Source: an uncultured Methanobrevibacter sp. (lineage in GTDB: Archaea; Methanobacteriota; Methanobacteria; Methanobacteriales; Methanobacteriaceae). From it: a stretch of 47,330 nt of DNA. Shown in pieces: positions 1 through 22,391 of the stretch. The DNA is taken from positions 1-47,330 of the forward strand of contig NZ_CACWVY010000021.1 of assembly GCF_902764455.1 (NCBI RefSeq), in the 5' to 3' direction. The notes under the pieces are model-generated. The model saw only the letters and a list, made by a program, of their open reading frames with translations, was not told the origin of the DNA and did not search any database. Position numbers and translations under genes: made by a program. The number at the start of each line of letters is the position of its first letter. Position 1 is the stretch's first letter.

Positions 1-3000
1 TCCACCATTTTCAAAGTAACCGTTTTTAACGAGAGTGTTATAAGCACCAGTGTGGATAGACAAGAATCCAGTACCAGAACCGACACCACGTTTATTAGCG
101 ACAATACTGACGCCATCAACAGTTACGTTAGAAGCACCTTTAATGTATAAACAATAGTTAATAAAGTCTAATCCAGTTATATTAGTGTTATCTCCACCAG
201 CAACAATATTAAATGAATTAATAGCATTACCAGCATAAGAAGCACCACAATCGAATAAAGCATCACCAGTAGATGAAACAACATTAACAGATTTATCAAT
301 ATATACAGGATATTTGCCTAAGAACAATCCTTGGAAGTCCAAAGTAACTCCATTAGGAGTTGGCAACAAGTAACCATTTTCATCGAAGTAATTATAGAAT
401 GTAGAGTTAGTAATTACACCATCAAGAATTATGAATGTTGCATTAGCTTCACCAGGGTTGACAGCTTCACTACCTCCATAAAATGCAGATACATTGTTAA
501 TTGCACCTTCAACCAATTCAGCAAAGTCAACTACTTGAGATACAGTACCATTTACAATTTGTAAATCTTTGTATTCTTTTTCATTTACTTTTAAAACGAC
601 ATACCCTTCGGTTGCGTTAGTAACAGTCACAGTAATTACATATTCATGTCCTTTAAATGCATTTGGAGCGTCAATGATTACTTCAGCAGTATAAGGAGGA
701 TAGTTGTTTCTGATTACATTACCTTCACCTTTTAAGATAGTAGCTGCATCATTACCCCATAATTCATGAGCATGTAAATTGTTTGCAATTACACTTGAAT
801 CTTTTGCATATGGGAAGTATACTGTATATTTACCATCAACAAATATTTCATTGTCTCTTATATCATATGTATGGTCATAACCACCATATGCTTCATCCCA
901 TTGAGCATAGCTTATACCAAATAAATAGTTGGTATCATCATAAGCACCGATACTTTGTGCATATATGGTATTTCCATATATATTAGCAACAGTATCCTGA
1001 AGTTCCATACCTGAAACTAATGCCCAATTACTACTATTAGTAGCTAAGCCTGTTACATTAATGGCATTATTTGTTATATTAAGTTCAGTTGCACCGTTAT
1101 AGTTTTGTGAATAAATACCTAAAGTAGGACCTTTACTAATTGAAGTTAATGTATTTCCATCAATTAAAACACCAGTGTAAGGACCAGTAAGTTGAACTGG
1201 ATATGCACTACCATGTCCGTCTACACCAGCAGTGGAATTTACTAAAATATCATTGTTTAATATTTTTGCATCATCACATAAGTATAAGTCTACAGCATTT
1301 GAGTATCCTGCACCGTCATTTGAGAAGTCAGTTTGAACTATGGTATTTTTACTGATTTCCAAATTAGTTACACCATTAGCCATAATTGAATCAACGGTTG
1401 GGAAATTACCATAAGTAGCAACTACATCAGTATTTATTTCACTGGTTGTGACTTTATTGTTTTCTCCACCCTGAATAGCAATAGCTAAAACTAAATCTTG
1501 GTCAACACCAGTTGCCCCACTATAATAATCCACATCACAAGCAGGCAATTTAGCATTTATTGTGCTTTTAGTTACTGCAGAATTGGTACAGTCACGGTAT
1601 TGAACAGCGTGTTGGGTGTATCCAGGAGTTCCAATAGAATTACTATTAAAGTTGACATCTGAGGATAACAATCTGAAGTTATCAACATCATATGCATAAA
1701 CTGCATATGCATTAGTGTCTTTAACAGTATCATAATTAACAGTTACATACTGTAAAGTTACATCATCACCAGCAATATTGAAAGCAGCACCGTGGTCACC
1801 TTCAAGATTTAAAACAATATACTTGATTGTAACATCATTTCCGGTAACTTTAAATGTAATATTATCAAATACACCAAAGTTTGAATATGTATCAAAGGTC
1901 ATTGGAGCTGTAATAGTAATTGTGTCAAGACCTAAACCGGTAGCGTTGAAATCATCACGGAATAATAATTTTGAATATGGAATATCTTCATACATGTATC
2001 CGTCTTCATCGAAGTAGTCGTGGAAGTTGGAGTTGTAGATGTAATCGTTTCTTGTGCTTGAAACTGTTAATGTAGCAGTACCGAAGCTTTCTTCAAATAA
2101 TCCTGCTTCATCAGTATATTTAGCAAGAATTTCATAAGTTCCTGCTGCTAATGATACAACAAATTTACCTTTAGCAGTACCGTTTTCAACATCTAAAATA
2201 CCCATAGATACCTCGTTAATGAATAATTCAACTGCACCTTGGTTTACAATAGTTCCATCAGCTGAAGTCACATTAATAATGTAAACAGGTCTTTCAGCTT
2301 TTTTAGCAGAAACATTGTTAAGTTTAACAGTGGTTCCACTGGAAACCATGAATAAGTTTTCTTTTTGATTGTCAACAGTTACATCAACGAATTTTAAATC
2401 AGCAGGAACAGTAAATACAGTAGAGAATGCACCGTTTTCCAATGTGCCTTCAATATTTCCAGCTGAAGTTTCAATGGTTACATCACGTGCTATACTAATA
2501 GGTTTTGTTAAAGTTCCAACAGCAGATCCTGTAGTGTATGAGTTAATGTCTGCTGTGATTGTTACGTTTTTACCTTCAACAAATGCAGTATCATTTGAAA
2601 CTGTTAAAACAGCCCATCTGTTTAAGGTTACTTTATCTGAAACAGAGGATTTAGGTGATTCACTGGATCCCCACCAGTTATCGTTTACAGTTACACTTGG
2701 AGTGACATAATTAGTGATTCTAGCATAAATAGTATAATTTGAATCATCAATGTTACCAATTAAAACTGAACTATCAACATTTACAGTGGAAGCTCTTGCA
2801 TAAATAGCTCCTCCACCAAGACCATCAACAGTATTTAATTCAAATAATGAATCAGAAACTGTTAAGGTTTCTTTTTTATCAGAGTATGCTCCAACAAAGC
2901 TAATAGCTCCTCCACCATAGTTACTTTCAGAGTCTTCACCTTTAGCAGAGTTTGCTACAAAGTTACAACCTGTAATAGTGGCTACATTTACATTTACGAT

Positions 3001-6000
3001 TTCTACAGCTCCACCACCTGACTTTTCAACATAGTTTGCAGTGAAGTTTGAGTTTTCAATGCTTAATCCGTCAGCAGCTTGTTGAACAAATATAGCTCCT
3101 CCACCGAAGTTACCGTTTCCTGCAGCGCCATTGTTGGTAAATGCAGAGTTAGTAACAGCTAAAGTAGGAGTTTGACCAGTTCCAGCATTTTGAGTAAATA
3201 TTGCTCCACCGTTTTGGCTAGCCTTATTGTTTTCAAAAGTAGAATCAGTTACAATTAAATTACCTGCATTGTAGATTGCACCACCGTTTTTGGAGGAAGT
3301 GGAATTAGCTAAAATACAGTTAATTATTGTTAAGTTTCCGGAGTTTCCAAAGAGTGCACCGCTTTCATCGGAAGTGTAACCGTTGATTAATGTGATTCCT
3401 TCGATTACAACATTTCCGGAGGTGCCAACGTATAAAACTCTGTTGTTGTTTTGAGCGTCAACAATAGCATCACCCTGACCGGAAATGGTTAAGTCTTTGT
3501 AGATTGAACCTAAATCACCGGTTTTGTGAGTACCATTTAATAAAACGATTTTTCCTTTAGGTGCAATGTCAATAGCATGAGCAATTGTTGCAACAGGTTT
3601 TGATTCGGTACCAACATTAGTATCATTTCCTTCAGGAGATACATAAATAATTCCAGCAACTAACGGGACAGTTACATCTCCAATGACAATAGCATCATCA
3701 TCAGCATCAATTGTATAATTTACACTTGCTTTACCATTTTTAGTAGTTACTGTTTCATTTAATTTTCCACTAGTGGAAGTGAATGTTACAATTATTTCTG
3801 AAGGTAAAGTACCTGCATATTCACTGACAGTACCATCAGCATGTTGAAGTTTATCGAAAGCAACATCAATAGTGATATTATCTCCTACTTGAGCTTCATC
3901 AGGAGATACTTTAGCATCCATGATTACCCAATTTTCAATATTGATGTTTTCAGACACTTTACTTGCAGGATTATCATTACCAGACCAGTAGTTTTCGTTG
4001 ATATCTACAGTATAATTAGAATTATCAGATACAATAATGCCCTCATTTTCATCATAGAATATTGAATTTTTAATATCCAAGATATTTACCTCTTCTGGAC
4101 TAACTATTGGAGAAGAAGTAGTACCATTATAATATTTTAAATATAATTCTGCGCCTTCTTCAGCAGCATTATTTTCAAATACACATCCAGTTAATGTAAT
4201 ATCACCAGCAGAAGCAAAAATTGCTCCACCTTTACCAGTTTGCCCATCACTAATAGCAACGTTGTTTTTAAATAATGAATCTTCAATACTAACAGTTACA
4301 TTGTTGTTTACATAGATAGCTCCACCGTTACCGCCATAATATGTACCGCCAAAAGCAGTGTTATTAATAAATTCACAGTTTTTAACTATTAAATTAGAAG
4401 CAATACCATCAGTAATTTTACCAGAAGATTTACTTTGGGTAGTAGAAGTACCACCTACATAAATACCAGCACCAGAACCTCCAGATGAGGAAGTAGCATT
4501 ATTTCCAATAAATGAAGAATTGTATATTTCAGCTTGAGATTGAGTAATATAAAATACTCCATATTTATTGTAGTTGTTAGTGAAATTACAGTTTTCCACA
4601 TATAAATTTCCTCCAGATACATAAATGTTTCCGTATGAAGTACCTGTTTTATGTGCAGTATTTTTATCAAATACAGAGTTAATAATTGTTAAATTACCAT
4701 TTTTATTTTGAATTAAAGCTTGTCTGTTTTCTCCACCATTGTTTGTGAATACACAGTTGTCAATAGTTACAACACCATAATCCTGACGGATTACAGCACC
4801 ATTATAAGTCTCATTACCATTAATAAATGTAATGTTTGAAAGACTTACCTCAGCACCATCTTTGACATATAATGTTCTTTTACCATTTGCATCCCAAGTT
4901 ACAGGACCGGTGGTAAGGAAAATAACACTATCTCCAATAGTAATTGCATTTTCAACATAGGTTCCTTCTTTAACGATAATTTTGCAGATATCCCCTTCAT
5001 CCAAATCATAGGATAAATCACTAGCTAATTCAACAGCTTTTTCAATGGTTTTAACAGCAGCAGCTTCAGTAAGACCATCGTTAGTGTCTAAACCAGTTAT
5101 AGAATCAACATAAACAGTATCGTGAACTGTTGGTTCAGGAGTTTCTCCCCCATCAATTCCAGGAATTTCTTTATCTATCGCTTCACCATTATTGAATTTG
5201 TAAGTACCATCTGGTTGTTCAACAGCCCAAACTGTAGCATTTACACCTTTAGGTAATGTGTTAGATCCCCAGTAATTTTTTTCTACATCTGCAGCACCAT
5301 TGTTAGTTTTAAAACCAGATTCATAAGTTGCATTGAAAGTGTTATTATAAATGTTATTATAATTCATGGTTGCCTTAGCGGAGGAACCTAAATAAACTAC
5401 ATTTTTAGCAACAGTATTATCAGCAATAATAGATTGTTCCATAGTCATTTGTCCGCTAGCACCAATATAGAATAAACTTTCTCCAACATAACCTGCAGAT
5501 GATAATTGAACAGTATTATTTACAAATTTAGATTTTTTAATGTCAACAGTACCGGTTGAACGTACAATACTGTTTGCTGGTGAAATACAGTTTTGAATGG
5601 TTACATTATCCATATTTAAGACAATATTTCCATTTGTCAAGTAAATGACACCTCCCATTTGACCGGAAGCAACACTTAACCTGCAATTGTCAAATACTGT
5701 GTTTTTAATGTTGATTGTTCCACCATTACTAGCATATATTGCACCTGCACCATTTGTAGTTGAAGATTTAATATCTGAAAAAGTACATCCGTCAATATTT
5801 ATGGTTCCAGTTGATGCGAATTGCATTACACCATATTTATTTGTCATATTTTCAAAAGTACAGTTGTTAAAGTCAATATTCATTACTTTTCCACCGGTGA
5901 ATCTTAAAATACCAGTTCCACCAGTTTTTGAAGAATCTGCAATTTTTAAATTAGTAAATGAAAGTACAAGACCATCATCAGTACCAACAAAGATTTCAGA

Positions 6001-6372
6001 ATTCATTGTTGATTTGACAGATACTCCGTCTTTACTTTCACCAAGTAAATTTACAGATTTTGTAAAAGTTATTGTTTCATTTACAGAGTAGTTTCCATTT
6101 TTTATAAAAATAGTTTCCCCACCAGTAACTTTGTCTGAGTTAACAGCGGCAGAAATTGTTTTATAAGGATTACTCTCTGTTCCTTGTTCGTCGTCAGTCG
6201 TAGAAGAACTATCCACATAGATAGTATCTCCACTTGCACCTAATTCAACACTAGCATCATCACTGGCTAGCGTATCATCAGTTGCATCGCTTGCACTAGC
6301 CGCACTGACGCATAAAAGCATCATTACGACCAATATTGCGCAAATAAAAATATTTTTTTTATTTATCTTCAT
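1..6372 (-). CDS. ALP1: giant adhesin-like surface protein, right-handed beta-helix type, 3' end cut by window edge
   Basis: The frame stays open for 2124 codons from an ATG at 6372 to the left edge, so the C-terminus and any wall-anchoring domain are outside the window. Residues 1 to about 28 are a signal peptide (MKINKKN, a hydrophobic core, then SAASAS). The motif YVD/YVS..(G)xDxNxG..(P)xxTIxxA recurs near residues 50, 416 and 910, each time opening a block of beta-helix repeats rich in 'NNxA..GGAIY' and 'TITNSTF' strings. A non-helical Ig-like stretch lies near residues 1270-1430. A different module starting 'NSxFxxYFDExGY' occurs near residues 1445 and 1980, which points to internal duplication. 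The family is secreted and thought to mediate contact with other cells or host material. GTGAT lies 3 bases before the ATG. Specific ligand unknown. Confidence 0.9.
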   Translation of the reverse strand, partial: MKINKKNIFICAILVVMMLLCVSAASASDATDDTLASDDASVELGASGDTIYVDSSSTTDDEQGTESNPYKTISAAVNSDKVTGGETIFIKNGNYSVNETITFTKSVNLLGESKDGVSVKSTMNSEIFVGTDDGLVLSFTNLKIADSSKTGGTGILRFTGGKVMNIDFNNCTFENMTNKYGVMQFASTGTINIDGCTFSDIKSSTTNGAGAIYASNGGTINIKNTVFDNCRLSVASGQMGGVIYLTNGNIVLNMDNVTIQNCISPANSIVRSTGTVDIKKSKFVNNTVQLSSAGYVGESLFYIGASGQMTMEQSIIADNTVAKNVVYLGSSAKATMNYNNIYNNTFNATYESGFKTNNGAADVEKNYWGSNTLPKGVNATVWAVEQPDGTYKFNNGEAIDKEIPGIDGGETPEPTVHDTVYVDSITGLDTNDGLTEAAAVKTIEKAVELASDLSYDLDEGDICKIIVKEGTYVENAITIGDSVIFLTTGPVTWDANGKRTLYVKDGAEVSLSNITFINGNETYNGAVIRQDYGVVTIDNCVFTNNGGENRQALIQNKNGNLTIINSVFDKNTAHKTGTSYGNIYVSGGNLYVENCNFTNNYNKYGVFYITQSQAEIYNSSFIGNNATSSSGGSGAGIYVGGTSTTQSKSSGKITDGIASNLIVKNCEFINNTAFGGTYYGGNGGAIYVNNNVTVSIEDSLFKNNVAISDGQTGKGGAIFASAGDITLTGCVFENNAAEEGAELYLKYYNGTTSSPIVSPEEVNILDIKNSIFYDENEGIIVSDNSNYTVDINENYWSGNDNPASKVSENINIENWVIMDAKVSPDEAQVGDNITIDVAFDKLQHADGTVSEYAGTLPSEIIVTFTSTSGKLNETVTTKNGKASVNYTIDADDDAIVIGDVTVPLVAGIIYVSPEGNDTNVGTESKPVATIAHAIDIAPKGKIVLLNGTHKTGDLGSIYKDLTISGQGDAIVDAQNNNRVLYVGTSGNVVIEGITLINGYTSDESGALFGNSGNLTIINCILANSTSSKNGGAIYNAGNLIVTDSTFENNKASQNGGAIFTQNAGTGQTPTLAVTNSAFTNNGAAGNGNFGGGAIFVQQAADGLSIENSNFTANYVEKSGGGAVEIVNVNVATITGCNFVANSAKGEDSESNYGGGAISFVGAYSDKKETLTVSDSLFELNTVDGLGGGAIYARASTVNVDSSVLIGNIDDSNYTIYARITNYVTPSVTVNDNWWGSSESPKSSVSDKVTLNRWAVLTVSNDTAFVEGKNVTITADINSYTTGSAVGTLTKPISIARDVTIETSAGNIEGTLENGAFSTVFTVPADLKFVDVTVDNQKENLFMVSSGTTVKLNNVSAKKAERPVYIINVTSADGTIVNQGAVELFINEVSMGILDVENGTAKGKFVVSLAAGTYEILAKYTDEAGLFEESFGTATLTVSSTRNDYIYNSNFHDYFDEDGYMYEDIPYSKLLFRDDFNATGLGLDTITITAPMTFDTYSNFGVFDNITFKVTGNDVTIKYIVLNLEGDHGAAFNIAGDDVTLQYVTVNYDTVKDTNAYAVYAYDVDNFRLLSSDVNFNSNSIGTPGYTQHAVQYRDCTNSAVTKSTINAKLPACDVDYYSGATGVDQDLVLAIAIQGGENNKVTTSEINTDVVATYGNFPTVDSIMANGVTNLEISKNTIVQTDFSNDGAGYSNAVDLYLCDDAKILNNDILVNSTAGVDGHGSAYPVQLTGPYTGVLIDGNTLTSISKGPTLGIYSQNYNGATELNITNNAINVTGLATNSSNWALVSGMELQDTVANIYGNTIYAQSIGAYDDTNYLFGISYAQWDEAYGGYDHTYDIRDNEIFVDGKYTVYFPYAKDSSVIANNLHAHELWGNDAATILKGEGNVIRNNYPPYTAEVIIDAPNAFKGHEYVITVTVTNATEGYVVLKVNEKEYKDLQIVNGTVSQVVDFAELVEGAINNVSAFYGGSEAVNPGEANATFIILDGVITNSTFYNYFDENGYLLPTPNGVTLDFQGLFLGKYPVYIDKSVNVVSSTGDALFDCGASYAGNAINSFNIVAGGDNTNITGLDFINYCLYIKGASNVTVDGVSIVANKRGVGSGTGFLSIHTGAYNTLVKNGYFENGG

Positions 6373-6745: not shown

Positions 6746-7498
6746 TTATTTAAGTTTAATAGTTTTCTTAACTGTACTTTTTACATAAGTAACCTGATAA
6801 GAGTATTTTTTACCAACTTTGAGTTTGTTGTACACATTCTTTTTGATAGTGAATGTAACAACACCTTTTTTATTGGTTCTGGCCTTAAATGTCTTTTTGT
6901 TGAATTTTAAAGTCACTTTCTTGTTTTTGAGATACTTATTATTAACTTTTTTCAAGGTAACTTTGATCATAATGCTCTTAGCGGATTTTTTAGCATTGAT
7001 ATTTTTAGCGGAAATTATGCTTTTTACAACTACTTTATTAGTCGCCTTTAAATCACCGTAAAATGCCTGAGCTTTGTATGTTTTTGGAGGCAAGCTGATT
7101 TTAACTGAAGCATAACCGTTCACATCAGTAGTTCTTGTATAGGTTTTACTGTTGATGATTATTTTAACCTTTTTACCTGCCAATGAAAGATCACCTTGTG
7201 TTAATCTAACCTTATAGTACTTACCGCTTGTATAAAGCATTGATAAATTAGACCCTGCCAATTTAACCGGAGGTGCAATAGTTATCACAGAACTTTTAAC
7301 TATAGGTGAATATTTGGCATCACCTGAATAAGTTACGGTAATGTTATGGCTACCTTCAGACAAATCAGAAACATTAACACTTGCCTTACCATCAACTAAA
7401 GTTGCAGTGTAATTAACACCATCAACACAAACAGTAAAAGTACCAGTAGCATCAACAGGAAGAGAAATACTATAAACAGAAGAATCACCAGACTCACC
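6746..7498 (-). pseudogene. ALP2 C-terminal segment, separated by frameshift (Ig-like module plus lysine-rich C-terminal domain)
   Basis: This frame continues ALP2 after the second frameshift. It resumes at 7495 with ESGDSSVYSISLP, goes through one Ig-like module, then a 'YYKVRLTQGDLSLAGKKVKI' type Ig domain, and ends in a very basic domain (many KK, 'KGVVTFTIKK', final TIKLK). The same basic ending closes ALP3 (final NKITIKK), so it is likely the native C-terminus that holds the protein at the cell wall. It has no start codon or ribosome site of its own; an in-frame ATG at 7525 lies in a stretch that does not look like protein from this family. It is translated only if both frameshifts are bypassed or are sequence errors. 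Confidence 0.7.
7398..7496. repeat. 99-bp direct repeat, copy A
   Basis: This copy is identical base for base to 7849-7947, at an offset of 451 bases (not a multiple of 3). The first differing bases are 7397 and 7497. Weaker similarity continues for about 55 bases on the 7341-7397 side. The right end of the copy falls exactly at the ALP2 frame change. Confidence 0.95.
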
Positions 7499-7946
7499 TA
7501 GCAACAACAACATACTCCCCAACACCTAAACCAGAAATATCAAGATTAACAACACCATTATCAACAACAACAGAATAATCCCGATTATCAACAGTTATAG
7601 TTATATTTCCAGTAGCATTTTCAGAAACCTTAACATTAACGGAAGCAACATCACCAACAAAGATATCACAAACACCAATAATTAAATCAGAAGAAATCTT
7701 CTCAGCAGTACCATTATCCTTTTTATCAACATAAACAACAGCACTTTTAGAAATTGCCGAATACTTACCATCACCAGAATAAATCACAGTAACATTATGA
7801 CTACCTTCAGACAAATCAGAAACATTAACAGAAGCTTTACCGTTAACCAAAGTTGCAGTGTAATTAACACCATCAACACAAACAGTAAAAGTACCAGTAG
7901 CATCAACAGGAAGAGAAATACTATAAACAGAAGAATCACCAGACTC
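7494..7946 (-). pseudogene. ALP2 middle segment between two frameshifts (two Ig-like modules)
   Basis: Read in the third minus-strand frame, this piece starts with ESGDSSVYSISLP at 7946 and carries two typical ALP Ig-like modules ('GKASVNVSDLSEGSHNVTV', 'ENATGNITITVDNRDYSVVV'), ending in GVGEYVVVAR and a TGA at 7494. The preceding ALP2 frame reads VPVTND and then leaves the family pattern at 7947, where AT is repeated (GATATGAG). At 7497 one extra base shifts the frame again. The two shifts together restore the original frame. Without them the three pieces would form one continuous protein. Confidence 0.75.
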
Positions 7947-10900
7947 ATATCATTAGTCACAGGAACATCAACCTTTAAAACACTGAAAGAAGTTGTGTTT
8001 ACACAAGGATTGTATGTATCATCACCGGAATATTGAACAACAACAGCATAGCTACCTGCTTCCAAATTAGATACAGTTAATGTTGCAAAAGCGTTTTCTA
8101 TGGTAATATCATAAGTTTTATTATTCAATGTTAATGTTATTTTGCCGGAATTGACAGATGCTGTAACATTAACAGTTAAAACATCACCCACATAAATATT
8201 ATAAGCAATAACAGATATTTCAGAAGGCAATTTATCTATATTTAATGAAACATTATTGAAAATAACAGATTCATATTTATTATCACCAGAATACATAACA
8301 GATGCAGTATAATCACCAGGATGCAAATCAGATATGCTTAAAATAGCATTACCATCAATTACTTCCTGAGTGTAAGCCTTATCATTTACATTGACAATCA
8401 AACTGCCTTTTGCATCAGAAGGAAGTGAAATTGCAAATATTGTTCCGTTAACATTTAAAACATCCTGAGATAGCTTAATTTTAGATACTATAAATGAAGT
8501 GATATTTTCACAGTCAGCATAGTTTTCACTTTCAAACTTAATAGTTACTGCATACTTTCCGGCTTCCAAATCTGAAATAGTTATATTTGAAATACCATTA
8601 TTAACCTTTGCAGAGTAATTTTTACCATTAATTACACATGAAACATTGCCTAAAACATCATTCGGCATTATAATGCTGATTGTTTCATTTTCACCAACAA
8701 AAATATCCTCAGAACTGACATTTAAAGCAGTAACAGATTTTTTAACTGTGAAGTTAGATGATACTGATTGACCAGTGAATCTGGCATCACCATTATAATA
8801 CACCTCCACTGTATGAATTCCAACGTTTAAATCAGAAAGGGTTTTAACAATGATTCCTTGATTATTTATTGAATCAGTATAAGTTTTTCCATCAATTTTA
8901 ATGATGACATCACCAATGCATTGGTTATTTATGCCAACAGTAATTGTAACGTCTTGTCCAACAGACACATCAGTAACATTAATTGTAATATCAGGACTGA
9001 TTAATTTAGCTGATGATAATGCTGCAATAGACCCATTTGTAGCAACATAAATTAAGCCATTATTACCTATTATAGGAGTGCCGATTATTTCTAATCCCAT
9101 ATCAGACTTCCACACTACATTACCTTCACTATCAAATGAGTATAACATGTTATTTGAACCAACGTAAATATTTCCATCATTTCCAACTAAAATACCAGAA
9201 GTGAAAGTCAGATTGGAAATTAATGATTCACTACCATCAATCAAATCATATCTGTACAGATTTCCTTGAGAATTGATGGAATATAATCCCCATTCATCAT
9301 CCAATGCAAGATAACTACCAGAACCCCCAGTTATTTTAGTTTTCCAGATTTGATTTCCGTCAGGAGTAATCTCAACGATATTGTCATCCAATACTGCATA
9401 AATCATATTTCCAGGACCCATAACAGGACGAATTCCATTATTTTTACCAGGAATACTAGACATGACTTGTTTGTTATCCAAATCAATTATTTTAAGACCG
9501 TCATCACATGAAACAACTGCAGTACTCTCACTAACAATTACAGGAGAAGAAACAGGTTGGGATTTTCCAAGACTTATTATTGTTGGATTTCCACCGTTTT
9601 CCCAGAGAGAATATGGAATTATAACCAGTTTATAGTCAGATGATGAGACTTGATATTCACTGGAAATGTATATATTTGCATTTGAATCAATTACCGGTGC
9701 AAATAAGCTGGAACCCTGATAAATATTGGATCTGCCGAATTTTTCACCTGTTGTCTGATTGATGAAATGAATAGTATTTCCGTTTTCAGGCACGATAATC
9801 ACATCACGACCAATAGCTACACCATAGAAGCTGCCATCAAACTTTTGAGTATAATTCCATAATTGAACTGCATTATTTAATGCATAAACAGCAGTTGAGG
9901 TAGCTAAATAGATATTGCCATTACAGTCGATTGCCAGATTTCCAGTGATTTCACCACTTACATTATAACTCCAAAGGATTGCACCATTTGAATCAGTATC
10001 ATAAGGTGATTTTCCAGTGTTTTGAATATCATATCCCTGATTCGGCCATAATGGAGTTTCATAATCCAAAACATTAAATTCTGTTGTATTTTCAACATTG
10101 AAATAATTATCACTTATTAAAATAGCGGAAATGACATATTTTTCCACAGGCAGGTTTGAAAGTTTCCATGAAACTTTTCCAGTACGTGGAATTGTTTTAA
10201 CAATACTTTGGCCGGCACATGTGATTGTAATGTTTCCATCAACACCATTTTCAACAATCACTTCAATATTTTCATCATGTCCAATCATTATGTCATTTGC
10301 ATTAATTGTTAATGTAGTAGAGGCTTTTAAAACATTAAATGAAGTTGTGTAATTTATAGCATTGAAAACATTGTTTCCACCATAATAAACGAATAATTCT
10401 TTATTTCCTACATTTAATTTAGAAATATTGAATAGAGATTTTCCGTTTATAATTTCTGATGTTGTGTTCTCATTATTCATAGCAATAGTCACATTTCCTG
10501 TTGCATCATCATCCAGAACAACTTCAATTATTGCATTTTGCCCGTAAACAATATCTTCAACATTAACTGCAATTGTAGTGTTCAGTTTGTCTACAGAGAA
10601 TTTGATGGAGTCCTGACTTGTTAAATATTTATAATTTCCATTATACAATACTTTAATATCATAATCCCCTCTTGTTATTGAGTTAATTGTATAGTTTGCT
10701 TTTGAATTAACAAGAGTTAAAGTTTCTTCCTTATTGTTAATGATTAAAGTTATGTTTCCGGTTACACTTGGGGAAACATTGATTGTTAATGTTACATCAC
10801 GGCCAACTTCAATTTGACCGGCAGACACTGCAGTTGTTGAATTATATTTATTTACACTGAATTGAATTGATTTTTCAGCTGATTCATAAAATTTATTACC

Positions 10901-14118: not shown

Positions 14119-17100
14119 TTATTTTTTGATTGTAATTTTATTTGTGGCTTTTGATTTGCCGTAAGAAGTATATATTTTATAATTTCCAGCTCTTAATTTA
14201 AGTTTAAGTGTTAATGTAGCATAACCCTTTTTGTTAGTCTTTACAATGTATTTTTTGCCTCTAAACTTGAAAGTGATTTTTTTATTCTTTAAAATCTTAC
14301 CTTTCTTATCCAATAGTTTAACTTTAAAGGTGATTTTTTTACCATATTTTACAGCTACATTTTTAGTAATCAAAACCGGTTTAACGGTGATTTTATTTGA
14401 TACAGAATATCCTTTATATTTAGTGGTTATTGTGTATACTTTATTTTTCAAATTAACTTTAAGTGAAGCATAACCATCAACATTTGTTTTTACATTATAT
14501 GTCTTGCCGTTTAAAATCATTTGAACGATTTCACCTGATTTAACCGGATTTCCGTTATCATCAAGGACTAAAACTTTATAGTATTTTCCAGCATATTCAT
14601 ACATTACCAGATTATTGTTCTGAGCAATTCTAGGTATAACAGAGATATTTTTAGTCAGGGTTTCATTATTGATTGGATTTGTTAATGTTAATGTATGATT
14701 ACCCGGAGTTTGTAAAATATCTGCAGATAAATATCCCTGTGCGTCAGTGCTTTTTACATAGGTCACATCATCTATAGTGTAGACAACATTTGAATTTCTC
14801 AAAGGATTTCCTGCATTATCAAGGAATTTAACCATATATTTAGAGTTGTATGTCTTTGTTGTTGAATCAATTTCAACAATTGCACTTTTAACAATGATTA
14901 AATTGGAAACTGAACTGGAATAATACTGATAAACATCACCGGAATAGCTGACGTTAATATAATATGTTCCAACAGGAAGCTCAAACTCAAAAATAGCCTG
15001 ACCATACCCATCTGAAAGCACACTTGTCCTTACACCATTTAAATCAAATGCTACAAGTTTACCTGCTAAAGCATTACCATCCAAATCAGTTAATATGATT
15101 GAATAAGTGGATTTGTAATTATGATAAGCTGTTAAATCAGCTGAAATGATTTTAGAATCCTTAATGTCAATGACAAATTGAGAAGTAATATTTTTGAAAT
15201 ATGGATCATCAGTGTCATTCAAGGATATAGTTACATCATAAATTCCATTTGAAATATTATTCAACGGCAGGGCTTCAGTGAAATTGTTAACATCCACAGA
15301 GTAGATTTTATCATTAATTGTTACTACAAATGTTTCATTTGGGAATGAAGAGTTTAATTTAATTATAGTATCCGTGATGAAATTATCAGGACTGGCAGTA
15401 GTGTTTTTAAGAGCTTCAACCATGATTTTATTTGTAATAGAGAATTTGGAATAGTTATCATCGCCTCTGAATTGTGAGATAATATCATAGATTCCTTCAC
15501 TTAAATAAACCAATAATGATGCTTTACCGTTCATATCAGTAGTTTTGATATAATCTTTTCCATTCAAGTTAAATTCAACAGAACGATTAGTTACAGGATT
15601 TGAATTTTCATCAATCAAGGTTATATTGAAAATAGCCAATTCATTTTCCGTAACTGTCAAATCATTTGCAATTATTCTTGATTGTTTAAAATCAATTATA
15701 AACTGAGATTCAATATGATTGAAATCATAGAAATCCTCATCTAAACTGATATAAACATCATAAACTGAATTTTCGAGATTGGATAGACTTAAAGAAGCCT
15801 GATTATCATCAACAGTAATTTCATAGGTTTTATTATTGATTACAACAGTTAATGTATCATTTATGGATTTGGATAAATCAATAGTCATACTGAGATTATT
15901 TGCTGATTTTTCAATGCTTAAATCAATTGAGACTTTGCATTTGACATTAATAGAACTGACATTGCTGGTTTTGAAATGAGAATCATCACCCATAAATTCA
16001 GCTTTAACTTCATAACTACCAGGTTTTAAGTTAACTGGAATAATAACCTGACCATTACTATCAGTAGTTAAATTATAATATTGCTCACCGATTGTTAAAG
16101 CAACAGACCTATTTAAAAGAGCATCACCCTCCCCATCAGTTAGAGAAATTGCGTAATTGATGAAATCCTCATCATTAATAACTAAATCATCCAATAAAAT
16201 CACAGTTTCCTTAACATCAACAACAAACTTATCACTTACAGTATCATAATCATAAACCTTATCATCTAAAGCTGCATTAACATCATAAACCCCATTAGCC
16301 AAATCAAACAAACTTAAACAACCAACACCATCAACAACACTAACAACATAAGAATTATTGTTTAAATTAATAGTCAAAGTATCATTAACAGCTTTAGACA
16401 AATTAAATACCAAATCAACATTATTTAAAGAAATACTTCTATTTAAGAAAATAACAACTTTAGATTTAACATTAATAACACTACTGTTCATAGATTTGAA
16501 ATAAGAATCATCACCCATAAATTCAGCCTTAACTTCATAACTACCAGGTTTTAAGTTAACTGGAATAATAACCTGACCATTACTATCAGTAGTTAAATTA
16601 TAAAATTGTCCACCAATAGTTAAAGCAACAGACCTATTTAAAAGAGCATCACCCTCCCCATCAGTTAGAGAAATTGTGTAATTAATGAAATCCTCATCAT
16701 TAATAACTAAATCATCCAATAAAATCACAGTTTCCTTAACATCAACAACAAACTTATCCCTTACAGTATCATAATCATAAACCTTATCATCTAGAGCTGC
16801 ATTAACATCATAAACCCCATTAGCCAAATCAAACAAACTTAAACGACCAACACCATCAACAACACTAACAACATAAGAATTATTGTTTAAATTAATAGTC
16901 AAAGTATCATTAACAGCTTTAGACATATTAAATACCAAATCAACATTATTTAAAAACATATTCCAATTTAAATTAATAGTTACTTTAGATTTGACTTTAA
17001 CAACGCTGCTGCTACTGGATTTGAAATAAGAATCATCGCCCATAAACTCAGTTGTAACTTCATAATTTCCAGGTTTTAAGTTAACTGGAATTACAACTTG

Positions 17101-20100
17101 ACCATTCATGTCTGTAAATAAATTATAAACAGTCCCATTTAAATTAATTATAATTGACCTGTTTTTTATGGAATTTAAATCTTCATCTATGAGAGAAATT
17201 GTGTAATTGATGAAATCCTCATCATTAATGAATAAATCATCCATTATAATCTCAGTTTTTCTAACATCAACAACAAACTGACCACTTACAGCATTAAAAT
17301 CATAAATATTATCATCTAGACCAACATTAACCACATAAATTCCATTAACCAAATCAAACAAAGTTAAATAACCAACACCATCAACAACACCAACACCATA
17401 AGAATCAATATTAATTCCAACAGTCAATGTATCATTAACAGCTTTAGACAAATTAAAAGCCAAAGTAACATTATTGGCAAATTTATCAATACTTAAATCA
17501 ATAACAACTTTACTTTTAACATTTATAACACTGGAGGAAGTGTTTTTGAAATAAGAATCATCACCAGCAACATTGACAGTCAATGTATAAATTCCAGAAG
17601 TTAAATTAATTGGAATAAAAATCTGACCATTACTATCAGTTTTATTATTAATAACAGCACCATCCAATATAATTTCAGCTTCTTTACCAACAATTAACTG
17701 ATTATTACCATCAATTAAAGTAACATTATAAATGAAATAATCTTCATCATTAATAACAATATCATCACACAAAATGTTAATTTCTTTCATATCAATTACA
17801 AATTGAGCTTCTGCAACATCAAACTCATAATCATCTTCGTCTAAATTAACACTAACATCATAAACCCCATTAACCAAATCAAAGAAACTTAAATAACCAA
17901 CACCATCAACAACACCAACAAGATAAGAATCATCATTAATTACAACATTTAAAGTATCATTAACAGCTTTAGACAAATTAAAAGTCAAAGTAACATTATT
18001 GGCAAATTTATCAATTTCCATACCAAGATTTACTTTTGTTTTGACTTTAATTGTTGTTGAATTATTTGATCCGATATATTTATCATCACCTTTAAATGCA
18101 ATGTTTAAAGCATATATGCCTGATTTGAGATTTAAAGGAAGGATTATTTTACCGTCATCATCGGTTTTTTGATTATAATAACTTCCATTCATATTTATTT
18201 CAAAAGACTTATTTAAAACAGGATTGCCATCATTACCCATCAGATAAATTGTATAATTTAGAGTACTTTCATCATCAGTTATTAAATCCTCTGCTAAAAT
18301 CTGAGTATGAATAACATCAATTTCAAATTCTGATAAAACCTCATTATACATGTAAATATCATTATTCAAGTTAACGGATAAATTATATATACCATTTTCC
18401 AAATTGAATAATCTGTGTCTTGCCATTCCGTTAATGACTTTAACTGTGGTTGTATCATTATTAATGATTAATGTCAAATAGTCAGTAATCATTTTAGATA
18501 TGTTTATTGAAACCAGGACATTATTCTGAGTGACCACAGAGGTTAAATTTATATCCACTTTTGTTTTAACCTTGAAATTACTTGAAGAATCTGATTCTAT
18601 ATAATCATTATCTCCATTAAAGTTAATGGCTGAAACATAATCTCCAACATTTAACTCAACTAAAAATACTGCCTGACCGTTAATGTCAGTGAATGCATTA
18701 TAAGTCATTCCATCCACAACAAGTTCAACAGACTTATTTGACAGAGTATTGTTAAATTCATCCACTAATAGAACAGTATAATTTTGACCTTCATCTGATA
18801 TTACTGCATCATCTGCAATAATTTGTGTGCGCCTTACATCAACTATAAAACCGGTTGAATCATTATCATAAACATAAAATAGACCATTTATATCAACAGT
18901 AACATTATAAACATCATTATCCAAATTAATTAAATTTAATGAAGATGTACCATTTTTAACTTCAATTATTTCTGTTTTATTGTTAATTACAACAGTTAAT
19001 GTATCATTTATTTGTTTTGAAATGTTAATGTTTAAGGTTATGTTATTTCGAACTTTATCAATTCCTAAATCAATTAAAACATGTCTTTTAAGTACAATAT
19101 TTGATGTTGCATTTGAATTGAAGTAATTATTGTCCCCTTTAAAATTAATGTCAACATTATATGAGCCAGGATTTAAATTCAATGGCATTACAGCACGACC
19201 ATCACCGTCAGTTGTCAGATTATAGATTTCACCATTCAGAATTACTTCAAGAGTCTTATTTAAAAGAGGATTATCATTTTCATCAAATAAAAATACTGTG
19301 TAATTCATTTCATCCTCATCTGTGATTAGCAAATCCCCTGCAAGGATTTTTGAGTTTTTCATATCTATTACAAAGGTACCGTTTACAGTGTTATTTTCAT
19401 ATATTGATTCGAATGGGAATGTGATATCTAATGTTAAATTATATATTCCATTTTCCAATTCCGTTAAGTTCAATGAGTATTTTCCGTCAGCAAAGGTAAT
19501 TATATACTCCTGTTCATTGATAAAGAGTTTAGCTGTATTGTTGATTTTATCCATAGCTATTATATCAAGGACGATATTATTCAATTTTTGAGTTATATTG
19601 AAATCAATGCCTAATTTATATTTCTCAATGAAGAAATCTGTGTAATTTTGTGAAGATATATAGCCGTCACTTTCAAATAGTGCGTAGATATTGTTAAAAA
19701 CTTCTGAAAAAGCATAATGAAGCAGGGCAATTCCATCTACAACATTAACACTGTAATAATCATTATTTACATTGAATGTTACTTCACCGCTTTTTAGAGG
19801 ATTTCCGTATTGATCTAAAACTTTTGCAGTGATATTTGCAGGATTTTGATTGTTGAATTCTACAGTCAAATTCAAAGTGGTTTTAATTTCATCCAAAACA
19901 GTGAATGCTTTAATGCATGCCACCTGTGAAAGATAGTAATGTCCAGGATATGTCCAGGAAAGCTCAAATAAATCCTGCCAGTTTTCACCGTCATAACTCA
20001 TATAAGAAATTCCTGGTTTATATATTAATTTGTTAAAGTTAGTTGCCTCAGATATTGGAAAAGCAGCTTCACTGTCAACTTTTATATTGAAAACAACTTC

Positions 20101-22311
20101 AAAAACATCTCCAATATTTAACGGAATGAGACGATTCAGGTCAATTGTATAGTAACCTGGATTGGATTTTCCTTCTTTAACAAGTTTTAGCTCATCATTT
20201 ACATAAATATAAGCTGTCCAATTAGTATTTTTTTCAAAATAAGTTGAAACTGCAGCAAGATATTCATCATCTGTTGCTTCAAACATATTTTTATACCAAA
20301 CAGAACTGGAAGAGTTTAAAAAGTAATCACTCATTCCGGAAATATCATACTGATAGTTTTTATCATATTTTATAGTGTCATTAAAGATTATTGTATAAGA
20401 AGCATCACTAACTCCAGGTCTTGCAAAGTTCTTATCATAATATGAAACGTAGAAATATCCTTTATTTCCCCAATTCGGACCCCAGCTGTTTTTTACAATC
20501 CATGCACCATCACCTTCAATAGAACTTCCCCTGTAAAAGTTTGATTTAGAATAGTTATCATCCCATCCTACAATGGTTACTGCATGATTACAATCCATGA
20601 CATTATAGCAATAATAATTATTATTCCTCAAATAACTGTAATAAAAAGCAAAAGAAGTTGAAACTGCACCATACTGCATTAACGCTTTTTTAATTGCATC
20701 ATTTTCAGTGAAATTGTCACGTTTTAAAAATAGGATATTTTGAATATGCAATATACTGTCAATTACTGGGGAAACTGCTGAATTGTCATCATGCAAATCA
20801 TCGATTTCCAAAACAGGACCTAACCAACTTGTAAGGTATCCCCGAACAAGATAATCATTACCTCCTGAATTTACATCATAATTCCATCCATAATCTGAGT
20901 ATAATGCCATTAAATTTTTCATGTTTTCTTCTGAGAGATCTATGGAAGTACCGTTTGCCTTTAAAATACATGACTCTATAACCGCTATTGCAGCAAATGC
21001 CCAGCAATTACCTCCTGATTCCTGGTTTTTAACAGGTGTTGTGTATCCTTCATCAATCAGATTATATTTTGAAGGCAGAACTTCAATTTCAACAGGATTT
21101 GCTTTATACATACTATAGTTTCCATTTCCAATTGTCAAATTGAGTTGGGATGTATCAAAGATGTCATCCATATAATATGCAAAGTTATCCTTAAAAATGT
21201 TATATGGTTCAATAGGGCTTTTTAATTTATTTAAAAGAGAATAAATAGCCCCTGCGGCATAAGATGCTGTGTTGTTGGTAAATATATTGGATCTCATATA
21301 TAATGAAGTTGAATTATCAATAAATAATGCACCCCCGTTACGTGCTGAGTTATTTGTGAACTTGGAACCTGTTAGGGTAAAATCACCGTACATGTGATAA
21401 ACTGCACCACCGTCCCATTTAGCAGAGTTATTTTCAAAATTGGCATTTGCAATTGAAACCGCTGAGTTAAGTGAAGTAATAGCTGAACCGAATGTTGAAG
21501 AGGAATTTACAAATTCAATGCTTTTTCCTGTAAAAGGAGATAATCTTAGATAAATAGCTCCGCCGGCGTCATCTACAGATATTGAATTATAAAACTTGGA
21601 TTTGGAAATAGTTACATTTTTTGCTTTTTCACAGGCTATCGCCCCACCGTAATTATATGCCATGTTTGAATTGAAAATTGTATCAATTACTTCAAGATAA
21701 CCGTTACCCATATAGATTGCACCGCCATAAACTGCAAAATTATGTTCAAAAGTACAGTTATTTAGAGTTACATGGGCATTCGGGTAACTTTCATGAGAAT
21801 ATATTGCTCCTCCGAAGTTATTTCCATAGTCATCAGGCTTAGAACCAGAACCATAGCTAAAAACAGTATTATTTGCAGTAATATCTCCATAATTGGTAAT
21901 TGACATGTCTGTAAAAGTCACATTTTGAATTGTCAGACTGCTGCTTACTGTAAAACCTATACCATTATATTGTATTATTGTTTTTTCAACATCACTACCG
22001 TAAATATTGACTTTATCAATGGATTTTGCTTTGTCCAATTGATATTCACCATTGGAAAGATGAATATTGCAATTAGCTTTGATTCTATCAGCAGTCAGAT
22101 ATTTAAAAGGATTATCCAGTGACCCGTTACCGTCTGTTTCAGCTGATGCATTGAAATAATAATCATTTGAAGCTTTTAGGACATCCTCTGAATTAGGAAC
22201 GACAAGTGAATCATCACTATCAACTGTCAGTGCTGTTTCATTATCCGCTGCAAAACTCAATGGAATAATGAGAAGCAGCAAAAATGCAAAAATGACATAC
22301 TTTTTGTACAA
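14119..22311 (-). CDS. ALP3: giant adhesin-like protein with papain-like (C1A) cysteine protease and nine 175-residue repeats
   Basis: I chose a TTG start at 22311 because GGAGGG lies 6 bases upstream and it begins directly with a signal peptide (LYKKYVIFAFLLLL...SFAADN). An ATG at 22371 would add 20 residues and place the ribosome site inside the gene. Order: beta-helix block ('GGAIYMGNG', 'NGGALFID', about 45-400); C1A protease (about 410-640) with Gln430, Cys436 in GGNCWAFA, His576 in CNHAVTIVGWDD and Asn608 in IVKNSWGPNWG; a region resembling the lectin-like domain that often follows C1 peptidases (about 650-800); nine units of about 175 residues; and a lysine-rich C-terminal domain (about 2563-2730, ending NKITIKK). 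The protease catalytic set is complete, so it is probably active outside the cell. Substrate unknown; pseudomurein peptides, dietary or host protein, or self-processing are all possible. Confidence 0.9.
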   Translation of the reverse strand: MYKKYVIFAFLLLLIIPLSFAADNETALTVDSDDSLVVPNSEDVLKASNDYYFNASAETDGNGSLDNPFKYLTADRIKANCNIHLSNGEYQLDKAKSIDKVNIYGSDVEKTIIQYNGIGFTVSSSLTIQNVTFTDMSITNYGDITANNTVFSYGSGSKPDDYGNNFGGAIYSHESYPNAHVTLNNCTFEHNFAVYGGAIYMGNGYLEVIDTIFNSNMAYNYGGAIACEKAKNVTISKSKFYNSISVDDAGGAIYLRLSPFTGKSIEFVNSSSTFGSAITSLNSAVSIANANFENNSAKWDGGAVYHMYGDFTLTGSKFTNNSARNGGALFIDNSTSLYMRSNIFTNNTASYAAGAIYSLLNKLKSPIEPYNIFKDNFAYYMDDIFDTSQLNLTIGNGNYSMYKANPVEIEVLPSKYNLIDEGYTTPVKNQESGGNCWAFAAIAVIESCILKANGTSIDLSEENMKNLMALYSDYGWNYDVNSGGNDYLVRGYLTSWLGPVLEIDDLHDDNSAVSPVIDSILHIQNILFLKRDNFTENDAIKKALMQYGAVSTSFAFYYSYLRNNNYYCYNVMDCNHAVTIVGWDDNYSKSNFYRGSSIEGDGAWIVKNSWGPNWGNKGYFYVSYYDKNFARPGVSDASYTIIFNDTIKYDKNYQYDISGMSDYFLNSSSSVWYKNMFEATDDEYLAAVSTYFEKNTNWTAYIYVNDELKLVKEGKSNPGYYTIDLNRLIPLNIGDVFEVVFNIKVDSEAAFPISEATNFNKLIYKPGISYMSYDGENWQDLFELSWTYPGHYYLSQVACIKAFTVLDEIKTTLNLTVEFNNQNPANITAKVLDQYGNPLKSGEVTFNVNNDYYSVNVVDGIALLHYAFSEVFNNIYALFESDGYISSQNYTDFFIEKYKLGIDFNITQKLNNIVLDIIAMDKINNTAKLFINEQEYIITFADGKYSLNLTELENGIYNLTLDITFPFESIYENNTVNGTFVIDMKNSKILAGDLLITDEDEMNYTVFLFDENDNPLLNKTLEVILNGEIYNLTTDGDGRAVMPLNLNPGSYNVDINFKGDNNYFNSNATSNIVLKRHVLIDLGIDKVRNNITLNINISKQINDTLTVVINNKTEIIEVKNGTSSLNLINLDNDVYNVTVDINGLFYVYDNDSTGFIVDVRRTQIIADDAVISDEGQNYTVLLVDEFNNTLSNKSVELVVDGMTYNAFTDINGQAVFLVELNVGDYVSAINFNGDNDYIESDSSSNFKVKTKVDINLTSVVTQNNVLVSINISKMITDYLTLIINNDTTTVKVINGMARHRLFNLENGIYNLSVNLNNDIYMYNEVLSEFEIDVIHTQILAEDLITDDESTLNYTIYLMGNDGNPVLNKSFEINMNGSYYNQKTDDDGKIILPLNLKSGIYALNIAFKGDDKYIGSNNSTTIKVKTKVNLGMEIDKFANNVTLTFNLSKAVNDTLNVVINDDSYLVGVVDGVGYLSFFDLVNGVYDVSVNLDEDDYEFDVAEAQFVIDMKEINILCDDIVINDEDYFIYNVTLIDGNNQLIVGKEAEIILDGAVINNKTDSNGQIFIPINLTSGIYTLTVNVAGDDSYFKNTSSSVINVKSKVVIDLSIDKFANNVTLAFNLSKAVNDTLTVGINIDSYGVGVVDGVGYLTLFDLVNGIYVVNVGLDDNIYDFNAVSGQFVVDVRKTEIIMDDLFINDEDFINYTISLIDEDLNSIKNRSIIINLNGTVYNLFTDMNGQVVIPVNLKPGNYEVTTEFMGDDSYFKSSSSSVVKVKSKVTINLNWNMFLNNVDLVFNMSKAVNDTLTINLNNNSYVVSVVDGVGRLSLFDLANGVYDVNAALDDKVYDYDTVRDKFVVDVKETVILLDDLVINDEDFINYTISLTDGEGDALLNRSVALTIGGQFYNLTTDSNGQVIIPVNLKPGSYEVKAEFMGDDSYFKSMNSSVINVKSKVVIFLNRSISLNNVDLVFNLSKAVNDTLTINLNNNSYVVSVVDGVGCLSLFDLANGVYDVNAALDDKVYDYDTVSDKFVVDVKETVILLDDLVINDEDFINYAISLTDGEGDALLNRSVALTIGEQYYNLTTDSNGQVIIPVNLKPGSYEVKAEFMGDDSHFKTSNVSSINVKCKVSIDLSIEKSANNLSMTIDLSKSINDTLTVVINNKTYEITVDDNQASLSLSNLENSVYDVYISLDEDFYDFNHIESQFIIDFKQSRIIANDLTVTENELAIFNITLIDENSNPVTNRSVEFNLNGKDYIKTTDMNGKASLLVYLSEGIYDIISQFRGDDNYSKFSITNKIMVEALKNTTASPDNFITDTIIKLNSSFPNETFVVTINDKIYSVDVNNFTEALPLNNISNGIYDVTISLNDTDDPYFKNITSQFVIDIKDSKIISADLTAYHNYKSTYSIILTDLDGNALAGKLVAFDLNGVRTSVLSDGYGQAIFEFELPVGTYYINVSYSGDVYQYYSSSVSNLIIVKSAIVEIDSTTKTYNSKYMVKFLDNAGNPLRNSNVVYTIDDVTYVKSTDAQGYLSADILQTPGNHTLTLTNPINNETLTKNISVIPRIAQNNNLVMYEYAGKYYKVLVLDDNGNPVKSGEIVQMILNGKTYNVKTNVDGYASLKVNLKNKVYTITTKYKGYSVSNKITVKPVLITKNVAVKYGKKITFKVKLLDKKGKILKNKKITFKFRGKKYIVKTNKKGYATLTLKLKLRAGNYKIYTSYGKSKATNKITIKK
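14950..19350 (-). repeat. Array of nine ~525-bp coding repeats inside ALP3
   Basis: The marker 'I(I/L)xDDxxINDEDxxNYT' recurs nine times between about 19350 and 15120 at a spacing of 525 bases (175 codons). Each unit has two Ig-like halves: one with 'NRSV...L(T/D)DSNGQVIIPVNLKPG', the other with 'NNVxLxFNLSKAVNDTL...DLANGVYDV'. Two neighbouring units (about 16005-16435 and 16530-16960) differ at only a few bases, which suggests recent duplication or gene conversion. The outer units are more diverged. Edges are approximate. Confidence 0.85.
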
Positions 22312-22317
22312 AACTTT

Positions 22318-22368
22318 CCCTCCAACAATATATAATATATAATTTATGTAAATAATATTATAAATAAT
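22318..22368. promoter_or_regulatory. Divergent promoters for ALP3 and the DUF123 gene
   Basis: The region is almost pure A/T. On the plus strand ATTATAAATA (about 22357-22366) lies 26-35 bases before the ATG at 22392 and could drive a leaderless transcript. On the minus strand AATTATATATTATATATT leads to the ALP3 ribosome site GGAGGG at 22318-22323. Confidence 0.45.
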
Positions 22369-22391
22369 CAACTTTACTTAAATGAATTACT

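Follow-up and report, generated by a model that had tools for sequence, protein, structure and literature searches.

Two frame breaks at the ends of 99-bp repeats in a Methanobrevibacter adhesin-like protein gene very probably reflect assembly joins

Layout of the locus and its homologues

The window, a stretch of 47,330 nucleotides, is the entire contig C21 of an 85-contig, 2.75-Mb Methanobrevibacter draft genome. Its minus strand carries ALP2, a gene with the hallmarks of a Methanobrevibacter adhesin-like protein (ALP): tandem Big_3_5-like (archaeal Big) domains and a conserved C-terminal region. The C-terminal part shares 65-72% protein identity with the C-termini of other ALPs, and the Big_3_5 Ig-like domains detected in the individual segments are as expected for this family in Methanobrevibacter (PMC11532034). 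As assembled, the protein pattern is coherent across three successive frames (Table 1). The main frame runs from 13990 to 7948 and then reaches a stop at 7784. The pattern between 7947 and 7497 is carried by a second frame, made up of the open reading frame (ORF) at 7494-7850 together with the sequence upstream of it as far as 7947. A third frame (ORF 6746-7525) completes the pattern to the C-terminus. Because a ribosome would halt at 7784, the assembled sequence would give no full-length ALP2 protein. The frame changes, described as compensating in the initial annotation, thus compensate arithmetically, but not functionally.

Each frame change lies precisely at the right-hand end of one copy of a 99-bp repeat, a maximal exact repeat that recurs at an offset of 451 bp. 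Leftward of the exact match, homology continues at lower identity, giving a 210-bp pair. Exact-repeat and ORF analysis therefore confirmed the three-frame pattern, and its changes at the ends of identical repeats, that had been reported for this locus. A third copy of the 99-mer was looked for in the same genome and not found.

The nature of the lesions is better judged against intact homologues, which read without interruption across the join region (...GEYDVVAKYVGNDYYKESVNSTGFKVLKVDIPVGDETIVIPESGEEYSISLPADATG...). By this comparison, sequence has been lost at both positions: about 6 residues at the first join and about 33 at the second, the latter covering the final third of an Ig-like domain and the linker. 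Both counts are estimates drawn from homologues whose linker lengths vary. An AT duplication at 7947/7948 and one extra base at 7497, previously put forward as the lesions, were discarded, given that they leave the ~33 residues unaccounted for. We also set aside, as evidence, the observation that the implied missing lengths at the two joins sum to a multiple of three, since it is bound to hold when the homologues are in frame.

Table 1. Features of ALP2 and its repeat pair in the window
Feature	Position	Strand	Remarks
ALP2 open frame as assembled, 2068 aa	7784..13990	-	N-terminal part to join 1, then out of frame to the stop; Big_3_5 x5 and PQQ-like propeller region; syntenic G010 ortholog is one ORF
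ALP2 middle segment, shifted frame	7494..7850	-	Big_3_5, E 1e-14
ALP2 C-terminal part, main frame resumed	6746..7525	-	Big_3_5 and conserved C-terminal region
Copy A, exact 99-bp repeat; start of Ig-like/archaeal Big domain, ...ESGDSSVYSISLPVDATG...	7398..7496	-	Maximal exact match to 7849-7947; length equals the contig-end overlap of the assembly
Copy B, exact 99-bp repeat	7849..7947	-	Maximal exact match to 7398-7496
Join 1, main frame lost; ~6 linker residues absent vs homologues	7947..7948	-	...SFSVLKVDVPVTND / ESGDSSVYSISLP... vs intact ...VLKVDIPVGDETIVIPESG...
Join 2, main frame resumes; ~33 residues absent vs homologues	7496..7497	-	...GVGEYVVVAR / ESGDSSVYSISLP... vs intact ...GEYDVVAKYVGNDYYKESVNSTGFKVLKVDIPVGDETIVIPESGEEYSISLP...

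Gene order around ALP2 is shared with the sister species G010, with both flanking ALPs present and the non-ALP neighbors sharing 72-98% protein identity. Its syntenic ALP2 ortholog is one ORF of 2476 aa, containing tandem units with a 537-bp period that share 372 bp of exact identity. The best match in a goat omasum metagenome-assembled genome, Methanobrevibacter sp. RGIG2750, is likewise one ORF (2129 aa). The initial annotation had proposed checking the same locus in related genomes, and both counterparts proved uninterrupted. One scan of reference genomes for another allele from the same species returned only a different, intact relative. In the organism itself, ALP2 most likely forms a single unbroken ALP gene whose tandem Ig-like units are nearly identical.

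Both neighboring ALPs on the contig are also encoded on the minus strand. The one at 14119-22371 (2750 aa) has an intact frame and no exact repeat above 80 bp; besides Ig-like repeats with a 525-bp period, it contains a lectin-like domain and a papain-family peptidase domain. The other, at 1-6372, is cut by the contig end. Given that its G010 ortholog, a 4232-aa ORF, holds internal exact repeats of 490 bp, the contig probably ends here in another unresolved repeat.

Repeat lengths and frame breaks across the assembly

Beyond the locus itself, we surveyed maximal exact repeats of at least 40 bp in 1.84 Mb of the assembly, covering both ends of all contigs except ten short ones given as N. Exact repeats pile up at 97-100 bp, with 52 pairs in this range, 33 of exactly 99 bp, and none longer than 100 bp. 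Contig ends account for much of this excess: 36 of the 52 pairs match one contig end to another, as do 23 of the 33 pairs of exactly 99 bp, and a match of 97-100 bp is present at 60 of 150 readable ends. Such a pile-up at contig ends is the known overlap signature of a de Bruijn assembly with k = 99 (or k = 100, with an overlap of k-1). In the simulations published with COBRA, metaSPAdes and MEGAHIT at k = 99 and IDBA_UD at a maximum k of 100 produced end sequences of exactly 99 bp where repeats break contigs, and the same paper warns of errors introduced by scaffolding (PMC10914622). The repeat within ALP2 thus has the length of the overlaps at the contig ends of its own assembly, as an assembly join would leave it.

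Assembly joins should also leave their mark at other repeats of this length, and like damage was found at repeats of 99-100 bp on contigs C35, C10, and C47. On C35, an ALP carries a 99-bp exact repeat of its own (8726-8824 and 9122-9220) and loses its frame at the repeat ends; this ALP, split by a join at the repeat, is probably unbroken in the organism as well. Contig C10 has a 99-bp repeat of which the first copy (region 2125-2238) runs up to a 15-N scaffold gap (2224-2238), and a frame break marks the end of the second (2906-3004). The same contig carries a 100-bp pair (8327-8426 and 8930-9029) with identical sequence after both copies, save for 14 bp absent after copy 2, and it is there that the frame breaks. 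On C47, the frame breaks just after a 99-bp copy at 286-384, the other copy of which (1-99) is the contig end. A 42-N gap separates two 97-bp exact copies on contig C8. The affected C10 gene encodes a large repetitive surface-type protein, with its scaffold gap and two frame breaks each lying at the end of an exact repeat of 99-100 bp.

Across the survey, coding copies of 97-100 bp repeats had a frame end no more than 40 bp away in 9 of 13 cases; for 80-96 bp repeats the figure was 1 of 22 (Fisher p = 9e-5). The test is crude, as it counts natural gene ends and scores the window copy at 7849-7947 as unbroken despite the frame loss there. Even so, it excludes a chance coincidence of frame breaks with the ends of 97-100 bp repeats.

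Weighing explanations for the breaks

We conclude with high confidence that the frame breaks in ALP2 are an assembly-join artefact in a normal, uninterrupted ALP gene; the double break is very probably not a genuine biological feature. Working with an overlap length of 99, a short-read de Bruijn assembler would have left the repeat unresolved, so that pieces ended on the shared 99-mer. The joining step of the assembler, or of a scaffolder, may then have placed three pieces one after another (ending at 7496, spanning 7497-7947, and starting at 7948), with a small amount of repeat sequence lost at both joins. Dropped lengths that are not multiples of three would show up as frameshifts where the identical 99-bp segments end. 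An assembly join at the repeat ends was among the readings first offered for this locus, and it is strongly supported by the k-length signature at 97-100 bp, by the like damage in genes on C35, C10, and C47, and by the intact orthologs; from these observations, we infer the exact joining step and the true sequence across the joins. Two considerations count against an artefact. Identical tracts in tandem repeats are also made by gene conversion, and a single 99-bp repeat could occur by chance. The breaks could be real if, in this strain, repeat recombination truncated ALPs at several loci simultaneously and the 99-bp identities were gene-conversion tracts that coincidentally match the overlap length of the assembler, a combination that we consider extremely improbable.

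The initial annotation had also raised an on/off or length switch, in which recombination between the 99-bp copies would remove or add a 451-bp unit and thereby change C-terminal attachment. Direct repeats with 99-bp identity in a surface-protein gene are a plausible substrate for recombination, and their offset of 451 is 1 mod 3. However, a modeled deletion of the 451 bp leads to a stop at aa 2047, and a one- or two-fold duplication leaves the stop at aa 2068. Since every modeled loss or gain keeps ALP2 truncated, no simple exchange between the repeats yields an ON state, and the gain or loss of a unit does not toggle the frame between open and closed as it would in a phase-variable gene. The same damage, moreover, recurs in this assembly at unrelated repeats of equal length, and a literature search linking adhesin-like proteins, methanogens, and phase variation found no paper. 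A switch is thus an extremely unlikely account of the locus. Gene decay was the other biological reading, with real deletion scars from ectopic recombination at repeats having made ALP2 a pseudogene in this strain. ALP2 is truncated as assembled, and ALPs are large, repetitive, and prone to rearrangement; constraint nevertheless persists after the breaks. Measured against the G010 ortholog, codons past the breaks show pN 0.15 and pS 0.62, compared with pN 0.21 and pS 0.58 over the N-terminal 1297 codons. The corresponding dN/dS is ~0.13 after the breaks and 0.22 in the N-terminal part, with no sign of the relaxed selection expected of a pseudogene. The part after the breaks thus remains under strong purifying selection, with constraint no weaker than in the N-terminal part, although a break of very recent origin would give the same picture. 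Decay also leaves unexplained why the breaks in multiple genes cluster at overlap-length repeats and not at those of 80-96 bp, and we regard it as very unlikely. Simple base-calling indels in an otherwise correctly assembled ALP2 would fit the frames arithmetically, as one 2-bp and one 1-bp change. They fail to account for the absence at 7496/7497 of ~33 residues found in intact homologues, or for the position of both lesions exactly at the ends of the 99-mer, and their probability is close to negligible.

The assembly-join reading carries a caution for draft genomes. Where large, repetitive surface proteins show frame breaks and identical segments of one fixed length, these should be compared with the contig-end overlap of the assembly before pseudogenes or switches are called. 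Assembly joins may also inflate the number of ALPs counted as broken in Methanobrevibacter drafts.

Comparison with known systems

Like other Methanobrevibacter ALPs with archaeal Big domains (PMC11532034; PMC2812497), ALP2 encodes a very large surface-type protein in which Big_3_5-like domains are repeated and the C-terminal region is conserved. It differs in that its frame, as assembled, is broken twice, whereas the sister-species orthologs are intact. With phase-variable surface proteins switched by intragenic repeats, ALP2 shares direct repeats within a surface-protein gene; in ALP2, however, unit gain or loss restores no frame, and the repeat length equals the overlap of the assembler. 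A further parallel lies in the k-length end overlaps of de Bruijn assemblies (COBRA, PMC10914622), with which the ALP2 case has in common the exact 99-bp sharing at contig ends, the breaks at repeats, and the risk of scaffolding errors. ALP2 departs from these overlaps in that a single contig also contains two copies of its 99-mer, and each join has lost sequence.
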